Notes under the pieces: generated by a model
The model's input: only the letters and a program-made list of their open reading frames with translations
Database searches by the model: none
Told to the model about the DNA's origin: nothing
DNA from: Sulfobacillus benefaciens
Lineage (GTDB): Bacteria; Bacillota; Sulfobacillia; Sulfobacillales; Sulfobacillaceae
NCBI GenBank assembly: GCA_003023695.1
Contig: PXYW01000007.1
Location: 44,536 to 108,535 of the forward strand
Length of the DNA stretch: 64,000 nt
Direction of reading: 5' to 3'
Shown: positions 1 to 7,216 of the stretch, piece after piece
Layout of the letters: every line of letters starts with the position of its first letter
Position numbering within the stretch: the stretch's first letter is position 1
Program-made: the position numbers and the translations under genes

Positions 1-2135
1 CAATGATGGCGCCGTTCGCTAAGACGTTCGCGGGCTCCGTCCAACAGAATTTCTGTTTCCCTAAGCTCGGTTAAACTTGCTTTGAGCAACTCTTCTTTAC
101 CCTCAATAATCTTCAAATCTTCTGCTACGCGCTGGGTGAGGGTTTGAATTTCTGTAACCCGGCTGCTGCGCGAGTCCCGCTGTCCATGATGCCCACCGGT
201 AATGGCGCCACCAGCGTGCACTAACTGTCCATCTAACGTTACCATCTTGTAGCGAAACCGGTGGTGCGCCCCCACCGTCATAGCAGTGTCCAGCGTCTTA
301 AGCACGAGTACTCGGCCTAATAAATGAGAGATGGCTGGTCGCAAACTTCTTTCAAAATGCACGACATCCAGAGCCCAGCCGACCACCCCCTGGAGCCGGT
401 TCAGCGAGCGCTCGCCGTCGGGCACCAGGCCAGGGCGAATAGTGTCTAACGGCAGAAACGTCGCGCGCCCTAAGGCCTGGGCCTGAAGGAACCTGACAGC
501 GCGACGGGCCTGGGATTCATGCTCTACAATCACATCGTGACTAGCATTACCAAGCGCAATCTGAATTGCCAGCGCTACATCGGGATCACTCGTCAACAGC
601 GATCCCACAGTGCCCAAAATTCCCTCAAGCTTCTGATCACGTTGCGCTTGCAATATTGCCCGGACTCCTAAAGGCAGCCCTTCCCCTTCGGCCTCCAATT
701 GATGCAAGGCTCTTAAACGCGCCTGGCGCTGCGCAAGTTGATGGCGGAGAGGCAACAATTCTTGTTCGGTATGATGGCGAAAACGCTCCAACTGCTGACG
801 TTTTTCTGTGAGCTGTTGAAGTTCTTGGCTAAGCTGCTGCACCTCTCGTTCCATTTGCCTTACCTGGGTCCGTTTGAAGTCCATGGCCTCGGCTAAGCTG
901 TCCAGTGAATCCGTACCCAGCACTCCTTGCCACCGAGCCAGTGACTGTTTGATTAACCCCAAGTCTATGTCCCTTTGAGCCGTGGTGCGTCTTCTCAGAT
1001 CCAGCTCTTCCGCGACTTCTTGCACCTCGTGTTCCAGCTGAGCGATCTTCTGTTCCAGCGTGACCAATTGACCTTGCCATTCACTGCTATGGTGATTTGA
1101 GCGGTCTGTCAGTTGTAATGCTTCGTGACGCAACCGGACTGCTTGGCCCTCGATTTCCTGCAGTTCTGTGCCGAGGCGTTCCTTTTCCCCGGTAAGTCCT
1201 TCCAGTTTCGACAACATTACGGCCTCTTGTTGTTCCAACTGGGTGACCTCCTTATCCCAATGGCGCCATTGGGATTCGGCACGCATCATTGCCTCTTGCA
1301 CCTTTTCGGCCGACTCCCGTACCGTTTGCACTTGAATTTCATGAGCGGATAATTCCTGGGCAAGTTCAGCAAGGTTGGCGACTTGGGAATCCCGCTGCTG
1401 CTGAAGCTTACCAAGTGCTTTTTGCGCATTGCGAAATTTGGTATGTTGAATTTGCGTTTGCCAACGCTGGCGTTCGGACTGCCACGCCAAATATTGCCGC
1501 TCCTGTTCCGCTTGTTGAGATAATTCCTCCATTTGGCGTCCGGTCTCTCCCTGGAGGTCACTCAGTCTCGCGACATTGCTATTCACCTCTTGCAGATGCA
1601 GCAAGGTTTCTCGTTTACGCACCTTGTATCGTGAGACACCGGCTGCCTCTTCCAGTTGTTCAAGACGTTCCCGAGGTTTTTGAGTTAACGTGGCCTCCAC
1701 GCGGCCTTGACTTATGATTGCATAACTAAAACGGCCTAACCCGCTATCCAAAAGCATATCGGACACATCTCTTAGCCGCACAACTCTTCCATTGATCAGG
1801 TACTCCGAGTCTCCACTGCGGTAGTAGCGCCGGGTAATGACGAGTTCCTCAGGCCAACTCGGCATCTTTTGGTCGGCATTGTCAAAGTGCAGTGACACCT
1901 CCGCCAAACGGGCCGATGGTCGGCCCGGTCCCCCCACATATAACAGTTCATCCCATTTTTCCGCGCGCAGTTCTCGAACTTTTTGCTCCCCTAACGCCCA
2001 ACGTATGGCATCAACCACGTTGCTTTTCCCCCCGCCATTGGGCCCCACTAGGGCCGTAATTCCCGGGGGCAATATTATTTGTGTCTCTTTGGCGAAAGAT
2101 TTAAATCCGTAAATAACCACTTTGTGCAGATGCAT
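1..2135 (-). CDS. smc: Chromosome segregation ATPase SMC (N-terminal part, cut by window edge)
   Basis: SMC compacts and segregates the chromosome with ScpA/ScpB. About 711 codons are visible, open to the window edge; the C-terminal half of the coiled coil and the Walker B/signature head lie outside. The N-terminus has the ATPase half with a Walker A motif GPNGGGKSN at about residues 31-39, then a long Glu/Gln-rich coiled coil, then a hinge domain with the TxDGxxVHxGGAITGG-type sequence near 180-260. The ATG at 2135 follows GGGGAGGAACC, which fixes the start. In Bacillus smc directly follows rnc; here a block on the other strand and a GalT-like gene separate them. Confidence 0.95.
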   Translation of the reverse strand, partial: MHLHKVVIYGFKSFAKETQIILPPGITALVGPNGGGKSNVVDAIRWALGEQKVRELRAEKWDELLYVGGPGRPSARLAEVSLHFDNADQKMPSWPEELVITRRYYRSGDSEYLINGRVVRLRDVSDMLLDSGLGRFSYAIISQGRVEATLTQKPRERLEQLEEAAGVSRYKVRKRETLLHLQEVNSNVARLSDLQGETGRQMEELSQQAEQERQYLAWQSERQRWQTQIQHTKFRNAQKALGKLQQQRDSQVANLAELAQELSAHEIQVQTVRESAEKVQEAMMRAESQWRHWDKEVTQLEQQEAVMLSKLEGLTGEKERLGTELQEIEGQAVRLRHEALQLTDRSNHHSSEWQGQLVTLEQKIAQLEHEVQEVAEELDLRRRTTAQRDIDLGLIKQSLARWQGVLGTDSLDSLAEAMDFKRTQVRQMEREVQQLSQELQQLTEKRQQLERFRHHTEQELLPLRHQLAQRQARLRALHQLEAEGEGLPLGVRAILQAQRDQKLEGILGTVGSLLTSDPDVALAIQIALGNASHDVIVEHESQARRAVRFLQAQALGRATFLPLDTIRPGLVPDGERSLNRLQGVVGWALDVVHFERSLRPAISHLLGRVLVLKTLDTAMTVGAHHRFRYKMVTLDGQLVHAGGAITGGHHGQRDSRSSRVTEIQTLTQRVAEDLKIIEGKEELLKASLTELRETEILLDGARERLSERRHH

Positions 2136-2250
2136 GGTTCCTCCCCACACCAGGACATTGCGCGAACCTCTAACGGCAGTCAATTCGCCACTTAAGGGAG
2201 AGATTCCTGCCCAACCCAAGAATTAGATTCCAGGCAGTTTTGTCGATAAA

Positions 2251-2279
2251 TTGACAGGATATAGGTAAAGGCATTTACC
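2251..2279 (+). promoter_or_regulatory. Candidate sigma-A promoter for the HTH protein gene
   Basis: A perfect TTGACA at 2251-2256 is followed after 17 bases by TTTACC (2274-2279). The -10 is poor, so this is only a candidate. It sits just upstream of the ribosome-binding site at 2284-2289. Confidence 0.3.
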
Positions 2280-2296
2280 AAAAAAGGAGGAATATC

Positions 2297-2896
2297 ATGA
2301 TGAATACTCACAGAAGGAGGCTTGACCGCGTGATGTTAACACGCATGTTGAATAGTATGGCCCAAATCATTTTAGAAGACCCTTATATCACCGGAAAAGA
2401 ATTGGCACGAAAGTTGGGATACGCCGATGAAAAAGCCGTCTATTACTGGACTTTGCGCTCAAGTTATAAAGGATTGACAGGGTTTAAGCGAGCCGTCCTC
2501 AGTGGCCAATATCGCATCCAAGACACTATAGCCCGCGAACCCAGGCAGCGTTATGGAAGGGTGCCAATAATCGCGGGGTTTCGCGATGGACGCGAACCCC
2601 TCTTATCGGGGGAGACCATTACCGTGGTGGGCGTTCCAACTGTTCAATGGGCTTGGCGATACCCCGGTCCGCCTGTCGGACCGTTTTTGCCAGATGACGT
2701 CCTGTTGCTAGGCTATTGGCCGGCGCCAGATCCTGCCACCTGGTGTGTAGCCCAACAGCAAGATACCAACCATCACCAGATTCGTTTAATCATTGGGATT
2801 AAAGACGACGCCCGGCTCCTAGATCCTACCCTTATGAATATCGACGCTCAGTCATGGCCACGCTATACGATTCACCAATTAATTCGGTCCTTTTAG
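2297..2896 (+). CDS. Unknown protein with N-terminal helix-turn-helix-like region
   Basis: I do not recognise a named family for this 199-residue soluble protein. Residues about 15-65 (ILEDPYITGKELARKLGY and following) look like a winged or HTH DNA-binding segment that selects between start sites or sequences. The remainder is beta-rich and Pro/Trp-rich with a segment GPFLPDDVLLLGY near residue 130, which recalls the ...GD-hydrophobic strand of the LexA/S24 fold, but no catalytic Ser-Lys pair is evident. The start ATG at 2297 has a strong AAAGGAGG site 7-8 bases upstream; a second ATG follows immediately. It is divergent from smc and precedes the PBP pair. A regulatory role is inference only. 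Confidence 0.75.
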   Translation: MMNTHRRRLDRVMLTRMLNSMAQIILEDPYITGKELARKLGYADEKAVYYWTLRSSYKGLTGFKRAVLSGQYRIQDTIAREPRQRYGRVPIIAGFRDGREPLLSGETITVVGVPTVQWAWRYPGPPVGPFLPDDVLLLGYWPAPDPATWCVAQQQDTNHHQIRLIIGIKDDARLLDPTLMNIDAQSWPRYTIHQLIRSF

Positions 2897-2963
2897 TAAA
2901 CGGTCTGATAACAATGGCGACGCGCAGCACTCGTCAAGCTCCATCAAATTCGACATAATTGTG

Positions 2964-2972
2964 TGCTACAAT
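2964..2972 (+). promoter_or_regulatory. Candidate extended -10 promoter for the zinc-ribbon/PBP pair
   Basis: TGCTACAAT fits an extended -10 (TGnTATAAT with one mismatch). No good -35 is seen. A folded leader begins about 13 bases further on, which fits transcription starting near 2979. Confidence 0.35.
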
Positions 2973-2984
2973 GAACAGCATTAG

Positions 2985-3041
2985 CAGGCAACCCCCTTTA
3001 ACCGCCGCGATGCCAGAGATAACAGGCAAAGGGCTAACCTG
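2985..3041 (+). promoter_or_regulatory. Possible folded 5' leader ahead of the zinc-ribbon/PBP operon
   Basis: Nested complementary arms are visible: CAGG (2985-2988) with CCTG (3038-3041), CCCTTT (2994-2999) with AAAGGG (3028-3033), and TGCC (3011-3014) with GGCA (3025-3028; shares one base with the previous arm). The structure ends directly at the ribosome-binding site GGGAGG at 3041-3046. It does not match a riboswitch consensus I know. Confidence 0.35.
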
Positions 3042-3055
3042 GGAGGAAAACGCGC

Positions 3056-3478
3056 ATGATGTTTTGCCGTCGATGCGGTGCTGAAATTCCGGTAGATAGC
3101 GTGTACTGCCCCAGTTGTGGCAGCAAATTGGTGCCCCACCGGACTCTGGTGGAAGAGGATTCCTTAACGTTTCCTCAGTCGACCAGGAAAGGTGTACCGG
3201 TAGGACAAAGGATCCGAGAGCGTTACCAAACCGGCATACAAGGCGTTACGAAATTGAAGGTCCATATCCAGCAACTGTTGAAACCCGTCCTGGCCCAACA
3301 TATTTTTGTGGGCATGGGCTGTTTGTTTGGTGTAGTAGGATTCCTTTGGGGACTGCTAGGTCACCAACGCGCATTGGATTGGCTCTTGTTTGGCCTTCTT
3401 CTGGTTCTCGTCGGCATTTATTTTAAGCCTCCTATGCCGCCTGAGAGCGAGTCGCACCAAAAGGAGATGACAGATTAA
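3056..3478 (+). CDS. Zinc-ribbon membrane protein
   Basis: This 140-residue protein begins with a C4 zinc ribbon (CRRCG...CPSCG, Cys at about 4, 7, 18 and 21), followed by a basic linker and two hydrophobic segments near residues 80-120 that should span the membrane. The ribbon would face the cytoplasm. It starts at ATG 3056 behind GGGAGGAAAA and its TAA lies one base before the GTG of the PBP gene, so the two are translationally coupled. The PBP itself carries a similar N-terminal zinc ribbon, which suggests the two products work together at the membrane, for instance by a shared partner. The function is not known. Confidence 0.8.
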   Translation: MMFCRRCGAEIPVDSVYCPSCGSKLVPHRTLVEEDSLTFPQSTRKGVPVGQRIRERYQTGIQGVTKLKVHIQQLLKPVLAQHIFVGMGCLFGVVGFLWGLLGHQRALDWLLFGLLLVLVGIYFKPPMPPESESHQKEMTD

Positions 3479-3479
3479 C

Positions 3480-6032
3480 GTGCGTTGCCAAAAATGCGGT
3501 CAGGACAATAGTCCCGGTTCCCTTTACTGCCGTTTTTGCGGGCGCAAGCTCAAGGCGCCTGCAACCAAAAAAGTTTCGGCTAAGACTCCGGCAAAATCCC
3601 CCGCCATCCCTGCTTCCAGCAAGAAAGGCGCCACGCATAGACGGATACGTTGGGGACGCGTGTCTATTTTGGCTTTTGCGCTAGTCGTGTTAGCTGGCTT
3701 TGGATTTGCAGGCTATGAATCGTACGCTGCCTGGACCACCTTGCCGCCAATGACCTCCCTGGTGTCTTTGACCACGCAAAGTCAGGATTCCACCATCTAT
3801 GATCAATACGGTCAAAAGGTCGCAACCCTTCATGGCAGTGTGAATCGCATCAACGTGCCAATTTCCGCTATTTCTCCCAACATGCAGCATGCTATCGTGG
3901 CCATAGAAGATCATGGATTTTACACCAACCCGGGCTTCGATTTGAAGTCTATCGTGCGGGCTTCGCTTGTAGACGTAGTGCACCACGCGGCAGTACAGGG
4001 AGCTAGCACCATTACCGAGCAGTTAGCCAAGGATCTGTATCTCAGTCCTAAAAAAACATTGCAGCGCAAATTACAAGAATTCTTCATTGGACTCGAGTTG
4101 GCTCGCACCTATTCGAAACCACAAATTTTGGACATGTATTTAAATGAGGTATATTTCGGCAATGGCGCCAGCGGAATATACGCTGCCAGCGAATCATATT
4201 TTGGGGAAAAGCCTTCAGAGCTCACCGTTGCCCAAGCCGCCATGCTGGCCGGGCTGCCGCAAGCCCCTTCGCTTTATGACCCACTGGTTAATCTCAAGTT
4301 AGCTAAAGAACGGCAATTGCAGGTACTGGATGCCATGGCTAAATATGGCTATCTTACGCCAAGCCAGGCGCATGCCGATTATCTGGCCCCTTTGAATTTT
4401 CATCCCCAGCAGATCACGTCATCGAGCAGCTCACTACCCTATCCTTGGTATATCCAGCACGTCATCAACTATTTGGAATCTAAGGGTATGAGCTACAACA
4501 TGATCACCAATGGTGGACTTAAGATTTACACGGCGCTCGATCCCACCGTCTACAACATTGCGCAAAATGCAGTCACCTATTGGATGAATTATCACTTTGG
4601 CAACAACCAAAACCTGCAGGCAGCAGTGGTGGTGGAAAACCCGCATAACGGATATATTGAAGCGGTTATTGGCGCCAGACAGTACACCCCATTTGGCGAA
4701 GACTTGGCCACCTCTCCCACTGCCCTTCGATCCAGCGGTTCGTCTATTAAGCCCTTGATGGAATATACGGCGGCGTTGGTAAAAGGATACACCCCGATGA
4801 CACCGATTCAGGATGTCCCCATTTTCCATGTTAATGGCCAGTGGTGGCCGCACAACGACGACCACGTCTATCACGGCTGGATGGATTTGCAAGATGCCCT
4901 GGCCATTTCCGACAACGACGTCGCGGTCCATTTGTTGCACGACATTGGCATTCAGTACGGATTCAATTTTGCCACCCAAAAATTTGGCTTAAAACTGCCG
5001 GAAATTGATGCCAGCTATCTCGGTATGGCCATTGGAGGCTTTAAGCAAGGTGGGGTTAATGCCTATGAAATGACTCAGGCATATGCTACCTTTCCTAATG
5101 GCGGTGTTCGAATGAAGCCCATTTGGGTGACTAAGGTGGTCAACCAAGATGGTGCCGTCATCTTTCAAGACAATCCGCAAGGACAAGCGGAATTCAGCCC
5201 CCAGGTCGCCTTCGTTATGGACCACATGCTGGAAAAGGTGTTTGATCCAAATCCCATTCCTGCCATCGTAGGCGGCGGCCCCGCCGGCGCCACGGCAACC
5301 GGGTACGACTTAGGGATTGGGCGTCCCGCCGCAGGAAAAACCGGAACCAACAATGGTGAAGCGGACGCATGGTTCTTGGGCTACGAGCCGCAGTTAACGG
5401 TCGGGGTTTGGGAAGGCAACGTGCATGGTGAATATCCCCAACCTCCAACACTGCAAGGAGTCTATCCCTACGGGGACGTAGGTGCTGGTCCCATTTGGCA
5501 AACCATCATGGAGCAAGTCAACCAAGCCGAAAACATTCCGGTGGAACACTTTTCACGGCCCCCCGGCGTGGTCTACGTACCCAATGTTAGTGCCACTTCG
5601 GGGTTGATTGCCAGCCAGTATACCCCTTCACGAGATATTGAAGGCGCCTGGTTTGTTCAAGGCACCCAACCCACCTCAGTGGGCCAATCACACTTTCCCT
5701 TGAAGGTGGTCGCTTCTAATCCCAATCTGCTGTGGCAGCCAGGATGTGGACCGTTTGTCACCTCAGTTTTCCTGAAAAAAGAACCCGATTGGAAACCTGG
5801 AGCGCCTTTGCCCGCTGACCATATCTATTGGCCGCCGACACAGTCATGTTCGCCAAAGACGCCTCCTAGCAGCTCGTCCTCCACGCCTCCCAGCGCGAGC
5901 CCGAGTGCCTCGCCGTCGACATCATCACCCTCGGCGCCTCCCTCCAGCGGATCCGGGACGCCGCTACCGCCGCCAGTGCTATCACCGGTGTCTCCCAACA
6001 CCCCGAAGAGCACCCCGTCTTCTTCGACATAA
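3480..6032 (+). CDS. Class A penicillin-binding protein (PBP1A) with N-terminal zinc ribbon
   Basis: A bifunctional peptidoglycan synthase of 850 residues. An unusual N-terminal C4 zinc ribbon (Cys 3, 6, 17, 20) precedes a basic linker and one membrane anchor (about residues 60-80). The GT51 glycosyltransferase domain follows, with the catalytic EDHGF at 143-147 and QGAStITEQLAKDLY near 173. The transpeptidase domain has SSIK (nucleophile Ser421, Lys424), SDN (477-479) and KTG (620-622). The tail beyond about residue 800 is Ser/Pro-rich low complexity. The start is GTG at 3480, one base after the upstream stop, with AAGGAG about 12 bases before it. All catalytic motifs are intact, so it should be active. 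The cytoplasmic ribbon is the odd part. Confidence 0.93.
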   Translation: MRCQKCGQDNSPGSLYCRFCGRKLKAPATKKVSAKTPAKSPAIPASSKKGATHRRIRWGRVSILAFALVVLAGFGFAGYESYAAWTTLPPMTSLVSLTTQSQDSTIYDQYGQKVATLHGSVNRINVPISAISPNMQHAIVAIEDHGFYTNPGFDLKSIVRASLVDVVHHAAVQGASTITEQLAKDLYLSPKKTLQRKLQEFFIGLELARTYSKPQILDMYLNEVYFGNGASGIYAASESYFGEKPSELTVAQAAMLAGLPQAPSLYDPLVNLKLAKERQLQVLDAMAKYGYLTPSQAHADYLAPLNFHPQQITSSSSSLPYPWYIQHVINYLESKGMSYNMITNGGLKIYTALDPTVYNIAQNAVTYWMNYHFGNNQNLQAAVVVENPHNGYIEAVIGARQYTPFGEDLATSPTALRSSGSSIKPLMEYTAALVKGYTPMTPIQDVPIFHVNGQWWPHNDDHVYHGWMDLQDALAISDNDVAVHLLHDIGIQYGFNFATQKFGLKLPEIDASYLGMAIGGFKQGGVNAYEMTQAYATFPNGGVRMKPIWVTKVVNQDGAVIFQDNPQGQAEFSPQVAFVMDHMLEKVFDPNPIPAIVGGGPAGATATGYDLGIGRPAAGKTGTNNGEADAWFLGYEPQLTVGVWEGNVHGEYPQPPTLQGVYPYGDVGAGPIWQTIMEQVNQAENIPVEHFSRPPGVVYVPNVSATSGLIASQYTPSRDIEGAWFVQGTQPTSVGQSHFPLKVVASNPNLLWQPGCGPFVTSVFLKKEPDWKPGAPLPADHIYWPPTQSCSPKTPPSSSSSTPPSASPSASPSTSSPSAPPSSGSGTPLPPPVLSPVSPNTPKSTPSSST

Positions 6033-6037
6033 GTTGT

Positions 6038-6070
6038 CCGGCAGCCAGCGAATGGCTGCCGGGTTCTTCT
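6038..6070 (+). terminator. Rho-independent terminator after the PBP gene
   Basis: Perfect 10-bp stem CCGGCAGCCA / TGGCTGCCGG (6038-6047 and 6053-6062) with a 5-base loop, followed by a weak T-rich run GTTCTTCT. It lies between convergent genes and may serve both. Confidence 0.7.
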
Positions 6071-7100
6071 ACTGCTGAAATGTCGGTGCCAACTCTCGTG
6101 CCACTTCTTCAGGGTAACTTGTGGTAAATGGCTCATCATACAACTGCCTAATCGCCGATACGTCAGCCGAATGCAAAAGGGGGTTAAACATGCCACGGAA
6201 AGACAGCTTCGCGTGTACCCAGGTGTCGTCCACAAGAGAGGCTCCGGGGAAGAACGCCAGATTAAAGCTATAGATTTGGTGTTGTTCCATATAGCGGAAA
6301 ACATGTTGCAAGCCTACTGAAAAATCCCTCAGATCTGTTGCTGTGAGGTCTAAAATCGAATAGCGTTCGGGGAAAATCGCTTCCACATCAGCAATAAAGC
6401 TTTGGGGGACAAAGGGCATCAGCCACTCTGTATTGCCGATGCGTCCCAAGTAGCGCTCACCGCGTCTACGTTCCTCGGCAATCAAATCATCCCAAAAGAT
6501 GTGCCCCGTTTGTTCTCGATACCGCTTTGCCGCCTCTATTTCCGCACCCAAAAAATTCCCCGGATGATCCGTAGCATAGATTTGCAAATGGGGGTGGAGC
6601 AAGCTTGCGCCCGCCATAGGAAAGTAATTCCAGGAGATAAGTCCATATCCCATGTGGCGCTCCACCTGATTCACAGCCCGGAAATAATCAATGGAAATGC
6701 CAAAGGCATCTTGCAGGCGTTGTGGAGTTAAGTCAGCAACTGGCACCAAATGCGCCTTAGTCATCACCGTCACCGCGCTATGAGTGTCATAAGGCGATAG
6801 ATTGGGAAACACAACCGCTTCGCCTTGATGAAATCTCCCCTGGGGGTTAATATTCGGGGGAAATTTTGGCGTGACTTGTTCTACCAATTCAGGACAAAAC
6901 GGGCACGAACCTCGAGACAGCGAGAGACGCGATAACTCTTCCAAATCTATCTCAGGAAAGTGCACGCCGGCAAAATGCGCTATGCGCCCACTCATACCCG
7001 TTAGTGGGTCTTTACGAATTTCGCTCTCAATAGTCGTCTGTTGATAGTCCTTGCGAGGATCTAAATACCTGGTGGTGCGCGTTAGGCGTTCAAATTCCAT
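6069..7100 (-). CDS. GalT-like hexose-1-phosphate nucleotidylyltransferase (HIT superfamily)
   Basis: The 343-residue product resembles galactose-1-phosphate uridylyltransferase: an N-terminal zinc-type CPFCPE near residue 67, a substrate region FPNLSPYDTHSAVTV, and the catalytic HIT motif LLHPHLQIY near residue 165, where the second His would carry the nucleotide. The C-terminal part (NLAFFPGA...HAKLSFRG) matches the second half of GalT-type enzymes. Whether it uses UDP-hexose or another nucleotide sugar cannot be told. An ATG two codons upstream (7106) sits too close to AGGAGG; the ATG at 7100 has 7-base spacing and is preferred. No sugar-metabolism neighbours are present, so the physiological substrate is open. 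Confidence 0.8.
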   Translation of the reverse strand: MEFERLTRTTRYLDPRKDYQQTTIESEIRKDPLTGMSGRIAHFAGVHFPEIDLEELSRLSLSRGSCPFCPELVEQVTPKFPPNINPQGRFHQGEAVVFPNLSPYDTHSAVTVMTKAHLVPVADLTPQRLQDAFGISIDYFRAVNQVERHMGYGLISWNYFPMAGASLLHPHLQIYATDHPGNFLGAEIEAAKRYREQTGHIFWDDLIAEERRRGERYLGRIGNTEWLMPFVPQSFIADVEAIFPERYSILDLTATDLRDFSVGLQHVFRYMEQHQIYSFNLAFFPGASLVDDTWVHAKLSFRGMFNPLLHSADVSAIRQLYDEPFTTSYPEEVARELAPTFQQ

Positions 7101-7216
7101 GATCATTCCTCCTCATACGAATACTTGCCCATCTCCATGGGATCATCCCAGCACCCAAAAAACAGGAAATCTTGTCCAATTGCCTCGCATTCCCTACCAA
7201 TTTAACACAAAACACC

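Follow-up and report, generated by a model that had tools for sequence, protein, structure and literature searches.

Why would a cell wall synthase carry a C4 zinc ribbon at its N-terminus, and why would the gene directly ahead of it encode a second one? This question is raised by a 64,000-nucleotide stretch of the Sulfobacillus benefaciens genome (contig PXYW01000007.1, positions 44,536 to 108,535; hereafter the window, whose numbering is used throughout), in which a class A penicillin-binding protein (PBP) is preceded by a small membrane protein, here called the partner. The original prediction held that both proteins open with such a ribbon and that the ribbon pair might be a metal- or redox-responsive clamp on wall synthesis, or a scaffold for a shared binding partner. 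The ribbons on the PBP and on its upstream neighbour are confirmed here. Each motif sits at the N-terminus and is kept throughout the order, that of the partner wherever a partner exists, and the two genes stay adjacent.

Both proteins of the gene pair begin with a C4 ribbon

The class A PBP is encoded by the open reading frame (ORF) at 3480-6032 (+), which starts with GTG and specifies 850 amino acids; the partner ORF at 3056-3478 (+) specifies 140. As predicted, the genes lie one base apart, the single base 3479 separating the partner's stop codon from the GTG. The PBP begins MRCQKCGQDNSPGSLYCRFCGRKLK and the partner MMFCRRCGAEIPVDSVYCPSCGSKL, both with the motif CX2CX10CX2C. Its cysteines are C3, C6, C17 and C20 in the PBP (ribbon at residues 1-24, 3480-3551, +) and C4, C7, C18 and C21 in the partner (ribbon at 3062-3136, +), or C3, C6, C17 and C20 there too if the second ATG of the partner is taken as the start. 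Pfam Zn_Ribbon_1 (PF13240) matches the partner with 32.7 bits (E 6e-8), above the cut-off of 25, and the PBP tail with E 4e-5, at 23.6 bits in a whole-protein scan versus 29.1 bits in a six-frame search. Judging by the motif, the C4 ribbons probably bind a metal, most likely zinc. A PBP start downstream of the ribbon is ruled out: the next start codon in frame comes at residue 61, within the predicted membrane helix, while an in-frame stop lies three codons 5' of the GTG and none of the codons between is a start codon.

Behind the ribbon, the PBP continues with a basic, disordered and variable linker (residues 25-53, 3552-3638, +; predicted local distance difference test score (pLDDT) below 50 at residues 29-58) and a single membrane helix predicted by the structure model (residues 58-86, 3651-3737, +), which overlaps the end of a basic RRIRWGR box (residues 54-60). 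The glycosyltransferase domain follows at residues 112-286 (3813-4337, +; PF00912, E 1e-59, 201.5 bits against a cut-off of 27) and the transpeptidase domain at residues 382-638 (4623-5393, +; PF00905, E 2e-16, 60.6 bits against 22.1). The motifs S421-x-x-K424, S477-D-N479 and K620-x-G622-T623 (SxxK, SxN, KTG) are invariant across 26 aligned PBP rows, and with its catalytic motifs intact the enzyme is probably active. The protein thus shares both domains, the three motifs and one predicted N-terminal helix with the class A PBP / PBP1A family and differs from it by the C4 ribbon. The ribbon presumably faces the cytoplasm, given the usual topology of class A PBPs and the basic box that precedes the helix. 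None of the 28 matching PDB sequences extends to the ribbon in its listed best stretch (earliest profile position 77). The C-terminal ~60 residues of the PBP (5850-6029) are Ser/Pro-rich, of low complexity, predicted to be disordered and poorly conserved.

In the partner, the ribbon is followed by a linker of ~50 residues and two predicted membrane spans (3287-3343 and 3371-3427, both +), which appear in the hydropathy profile and as helices in the structure model (predicted template modelling score (pTM) 0.32).

The ribbons are conserved across the order and evolve under constraint

Relatives were sought in 61 genomes: 34 from the family, a further 8 from the order and a further 19 from the class. 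The ribbon was present in the best-matching PBP of 42/42 order genomes and in 11 further paralogues. Altogether 53 of the 56 order PBP loci examined carry it, which rules out that it is absent in close relatives, and each of these 53 has a start codon placed exactly two residues ahead of its first cysteine. The three remaining loci, with no ribbon or a degenerate one, form one paralogue clade (L079-L081). A full ribbon was not found in the 14 class-level loci examined (L082-L095, from 13 of the 19 genomes), one of which, L095, is cut by its contig end. That locus (L169 1-200, G057:C66, from another family of the class) starts CRRCGAAPGEL at the contig edge, possibly the second half of a ribbon.

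We compared the window with locus L003, which is 90% identical and whose synonymous sites are not saturated. The PBP ribbon had a proportion of nonsynonymous changes (pN) of 0.052, from 3 changes in 58 sites, and its linker one of 0.306, next to 0.033 in the glycosyltransferase and 0.019 in the transpeptidase domain; for the partner the values were 0.000 (ribbon) and 0.225 (linker). Alignments A1, A2 and A3 comprise 24 of 53, 20 of 28 and 26 of 53 sequences. Mean column identities were 0.71 for the PBP ribbon, 0.25 for its linker and 0.78 for the glycosyltransferase domain, and 0.85 versus 0.27 for the partner ribbon and linker. The ribbon, with the family consensus MFCRxCGENIPVDSVFCPxCGKNLL, is the most conserved part of the partner. 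Both ribbons are under purifying selection; the PBP ribbon evolves nearly as slowly as the catalytic domains and the linkers much more freely. Conservation and purifying selection rule out a chance motif.

Constraint is not confined to the cysteines. Besides its four invariant cysteines, the PBP ribbon has invariant R18 and G21 and nearly invariant N10 and S14 (26 rows), and in the partner P11, D13, S14, P18 and G21 are invariant together with the four cysteines (20 rows). This pattern bears on two alternative explanations. A ribbon that merely caps the protein, stabilising its N-terminus, shielding it from proteolysis or aiding membrane insertion with no specific ligand, would fit its placement at the very start of the protein, followed by a linker that varies and is predicted to be disordered. 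Such a cap would however not need the non-cysteine conservation seen over 26 diverse rows, nor is it generally needed, as none of the 14 class-level relatives has a full ribbon; we consider it improbable. The second alternative is a metal or redox switch, in which loss of the metal or oxidation of the cysteines alters PBP activity under stress. Sulfobacillus species are acidophiles of metal-rich sites, and the named relatives belong to this genus; four invariant cysteines per ribbon would also suit a switch. The non-cysteine positions are nevertheless conserved as expected of a binding surface, and the same motif in Lactococcus lactis is reported to have kept its zinc with ten equivalents of oxidant (PMC4628341). 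The redox-responsive role of the original prediction is thus unsupported, and we regard a switch of either kind as highly doubtful.

Two irregularities surfaced among the relatives. The PBPs L012 (G002, same genus) and L014 (G031, another genus) are 99.75% identical over 800 amino acids, while other copies from the same genus differ much more; G002 perhaps holds a contaminant contig. Two equal-scoring PBP matches in opposite orientation on one contig (G052:C318:136-1959 and 2040-3863) are perhaps an assembly palindrome.

The partner is linked to the PBP in one part of the order

An upstream ribbon gene adjoins 28 of the 30 best PBP loci, with a gap of 1 base in 18, of 27-31 bases in 9 and of 38 in 1. 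Profile searches returned strong partner matches (E <1e-30) in 28/42 order genomes, the same 28 that have the adjacent gene, always on the strand of the PBP; S. thermotolerans (L045) is among the carriers of the pair. An AGGAG word resembling a ribosome-binding site lies within the end of the partner gene (3462-3466, +), 13 nucleotides before the PBP start. It begins 18 bases 5' of the PBP start in 26/28 partner-linked loci (17 in L010; L020 differs), and the 13-base spacer is also kept in most of the 9 loci whose partner gene ends 27-31 bases earlier. Four words were sought before the PBP starts (AGGAG, GAGGTG, AGGTG and GGAGA). In 17 of 25 unlinked loci GAGGTG, AGGTG or AGGAG begins 11-12 bases before the start, so that the AGGAG spacing in the pair locus is longer than in partner-less relatives. 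This placement would fit initiation of the PBP being coupled to the end of the partner gene.

These features can be read as signs of a clamp, in which the ribbons contact each other and the partner, devoted to this PBP, activates or restrains it at the helix-polymerase junction. The partner adjoins the PBP on the same strand in 28/28 genomes with a strong match (18 with the 1-base gap), the AGGAG distance is the same in 26/28 and the ribbon is the partner's best-kept part. MacP of Streptococcus pneumoniae offers a precedent: small, membrane-bound and equipped with a cytoplasmic domain, it is needed by a class A PBP (PMC10746261). The distribution of the partner weighs against it. Three genomes of the order's second family (G034, G039 and G040) have a near-full-length partner match that is remote, on another contig and unlinked to the PBP, and the remaining 11/42 have short ribbon matches or none, with an additional weak match in G007 (110/153 positions, E 5e-6). 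Ten of the 11 ribbon paralogues likewise lack an adjacent partner, the eleventh (L076) being too close to a contig end to judge. With the partner missing, weak or unlinked in 14/42 ribbon-PBP genomes, the PBP ribbon does not need it, and the ribbon is older or more stable than the gene pair. The matches in the three second-family genomes (L172, L173 and L174) consist of a ribbon and hydrophobic stretches and may be detached partners.

The charges of the two tails argue in the same direction. Across the ribbon PBPs the linker measures 7-52 residues. The whole PBP tail carries a net charge of +8 to +20 in 53/53 and the ribbon alone +2 to +6 in 53/53, whereas the partner linker spans -13 to +10. 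Rather than balance each other, the tail charges rise together (r = +0.72; 28 non-independent pairs, some of them near-identical, such as L012/L014). We therefore rejected an electrostatic clamp between the two tails, and variable linkers with non-complementary charges also weigh against a rigid one: a rigid signal through the helix would demand a fixed linker, while a basic linker of such varying length, predicted to be disordered in the PBP of the window, suits a tether. Taken together, the clamp of the original prediction is weakened, and we think a mutual ribbon-ribbon clamp unlikely, although it stands first among the alternatives. The uniformly basic tail invites a further explanation, namely that ribbon and tail contact nucleic acid or anionic lipid, for instance to tie the making of the wall to the nucleoid or lipid domains. 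As positive residues ahead of a membrane helix are general, we rate such contact the least probable of the explanations considered.

Ribbon PBPs probably arose separately on the Chloroflexi side

The original prediction suggested looking for the same fusion in Firmicutes. While it occurs throughout the order, no ribbon was seen outside it among the matches listed from 398 genomes of the phylum; 13 further N-termini, picked for a match near the model start or a high score, were examined and none has a ribbon in frame. We also screened the phyla of a metagenome-assembled genome (MAG) deposited as Chloroflexi (L053) and of an actinobacterial MAG. Among the matches listed from 151 genomes of the former, four intact ones start at model position 2-14, with a ribbon in L184 and L187 and none in L185 and L186. 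One Chloroflexi-side order was examined further: in 16 of its 18 genomes a class A PBP combines a C4 ribbon with basic residues and a stretch that is hydrophobic (start codons unchecked; no ribbon PBP was read in the other 2). In the stretches examined, the place immediately upstream of these PBPs is never taken by an ORF with a C4 motif close to its start, a further point against an obligatory ribbon pair. From 119 genomes of the actinobacterial MAG's phylum, none of the matches listed starts before position 9, and both that start at 9 hold in-frame stops.

A maximum-likelihood tree was calculated from 68 PBPs with a midpoint root. It includes 28/53 ribbon PBPs of the order, 8/16 of the Chloroflexi side, 12/14 class outgroups (L088 and L089 left out) and 3/4 rows each of the 'bac' and 'act' groups, from each of which one row without a recognisable domain was dropped. 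The Chloroflexi-side ribbon PBPs form one clade (100/99) amid ribbon-less PBPs. Far from it, the ribbon PBPs of the order group together, with just one ribbon-less clade nested among them. As the two groups fall on opposite sides of starred branches under this root, one ancient ribbon PBP common to both is unsupported. The simplest reading would be two independent gains of the ribbon and one loss, the latter in the paralogue clade of the order.

Surroundings of the gene pair

A sigma-70 promoter scan returned 5 sites versus 2.4 (standard deviation 1.6) in shuffled sequences and was not used. By eye, TGCTACAAT at 2964-2972 is an extended -10-like word ~90 bases 5' of the partner gene; it is not among the scan sites. 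The convergent gene at 6069-7106 (-) shows weak likeness, below cut-offs, to galactose-1-phosphate uridylyltransferase and HIT proteins.

Discussion

How might a wall synthase benefit from such a tail? We favour docking over the four alternatives discussed above, and give slightly under an even chance to the following model: the PBP is active, a flexible basic tether extends from it, and the ribbon at the tip, stabilised by a metal, serves as a docking knob that recruits the synthase to a scaffold. The ribbon would bind a cytoplasmic or membrane-associated scaffold and so set where or when the PBP works. In one clade the two-span protein, presumably co-translated, would bring a second ribbon; it is most likely an accessory subunit docking on the same scaffold or on the PBP itself, not an obligate clamp. 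What favours docking is the conserved knob on a variable tether, the conservation beyond the cysteines and the second gain in another phylum, together with the precedents of ZitP, GpsB and the L. lactis pair Llmg_0524/Llmg_0526. Of the two roles first proposed for the ribbon pair, the scaffold for a shared binding partner is thus the one that we retain.

Among class A PBPs, Bacillus subtilis PBP1, Listeria monocytogenes PBPA1 and S. pneumoniae PBP2a have cytoplasmic tails to which GpsB binds (PMC6335420), and the job of the ribbon may be likened to that of these short Arg-containing tails. In both cases a short basic cytoplasmic tail is the likely recruitment site, provided by Arg-containing peptides there and by a Cys4 module here. 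The GpsB motifs given in the excerpt of PMC6335420 (SRxxR(R/K), TRxxYR and (S/R)RS(R/G)(K/S)xR) are absent from the first 65 PBP residues. The genome holds one DivIVA-family protein (157.8 bits), a match that does not separate DivIVA from GpsB. Its gene (L183) adjoins an ORF that resembles SepF by eye, and both are candidate scaffolds.

In Caulobacter, the zinc-finger domain of ZitP docks on the scaffold PopZ via a basic patch and a Trp (PMC5182065). Compared by its description there, ZitP shares the order of N-terminal Cys4 ribbon, intervening stretch and membrane helix, but differs in cysteine spacing (C5, C8, C28, C31; PF13719) and is not on a PBP. Llmg_0524 and Llmg_0526 come from one operon and each starts with CX2CX10CX2C; they bind zinc, stably under oxidants, and have two and one spans, respectively (PMC4628341). 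In Llmg_0524, the two-span protein that affects wall integrity, only two Cys are said to bind zinc (PMC4628341). As far as their description goes, the pair resembles ours as an operon of ribbon membrane proteins, and neither is described as a PBP. MacP has a cytoplasmic N-terminal domain and one membrane helix, is phosphorylated by StkP and activates PBP2a (PMC10746261). Its single helix is C-terminal, in contrast to the partner's two predicted spans, and the excerpt of that article mentions no ribbon. TcaA of Staphylococcus aureus is a zinc-ribbon protein of 454 residues whose operon is tied to the glycopeptide response, and the portion of PMC10611510 available to us does not mention a PBP domain. 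A further ribbon membrane protein stands beside another lipid-linked enzyme that is not a PBP, according to the excerpt of PMC12419801. By title or abstract, no description of a ribbon-tailed class A PBP was found among the open-access papers listed in the literature searches.

Several observations weigh against docking or the assignments beneath it. The PBP reaches 493.8 bits against NCBIfam TIGR02074 (PBP_1a_fam), under the curated cut-off of 508.75, and is therefore named a class A PBP here and not a certified member of that family. The Pfam ribbon scores are those of a short motif, that of the PBP falls below the cut-off in one of two scans, and pLDDT is only ~70 over the PBP ribbon. Distant pairs show the PBP ribbon somewhat less constrained than the glycosyltransferase domain (L016: pN 0.230 versus 0.181). 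Among the four Transgly matches of the genome (the ribbon PBP, one other long PBP on contig C114 and two short frames of 258 and 294 amino acids), the other class A PBP (L171) is without a ribbon. The joint rise of the tail charges also belongs here. Finally, other membrane proteins of the genome carry similar ribbons, so that the module is not confined to wall synthesis and might be a widely used part whose roles differ. The ribbon could instead act as a cap that stabilises the protein or, with its positive net charge, bind nucleic acid or lipid. By eye, four other ORFs of the same genome (L099, L102, L103 and L105) have a C4 ribbon followed by hydrophobic stretches, so the architecture recurs.

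Docking and a regulatory partner might also be divided among lineages by convergent control from the cytoplasm. The partner of Sulfobacillus-type bacteria would then be dedicated to binding the PBP ribbon, either activating or restraining the enzyme, and would be the Gram-positive equivalent of Lpo or MacP; in other lineages the knob would fit into a scaffold that is shared. We consider this, too, rather unlikely.

Gram-positive class A PBPs have few known regulators (PMC10746261). The ribbon PBP and its partner suggest that wall synthesis may be steered from within the cell in a manner not described so far. An N-terminal module that is small (24 residues) and separable, gained at least twice and joined by an operon partner in one clade, offers a direct experimental handle, and should the partner prove to regulate the PBP, it would represent a new type of class A PBP regulator.

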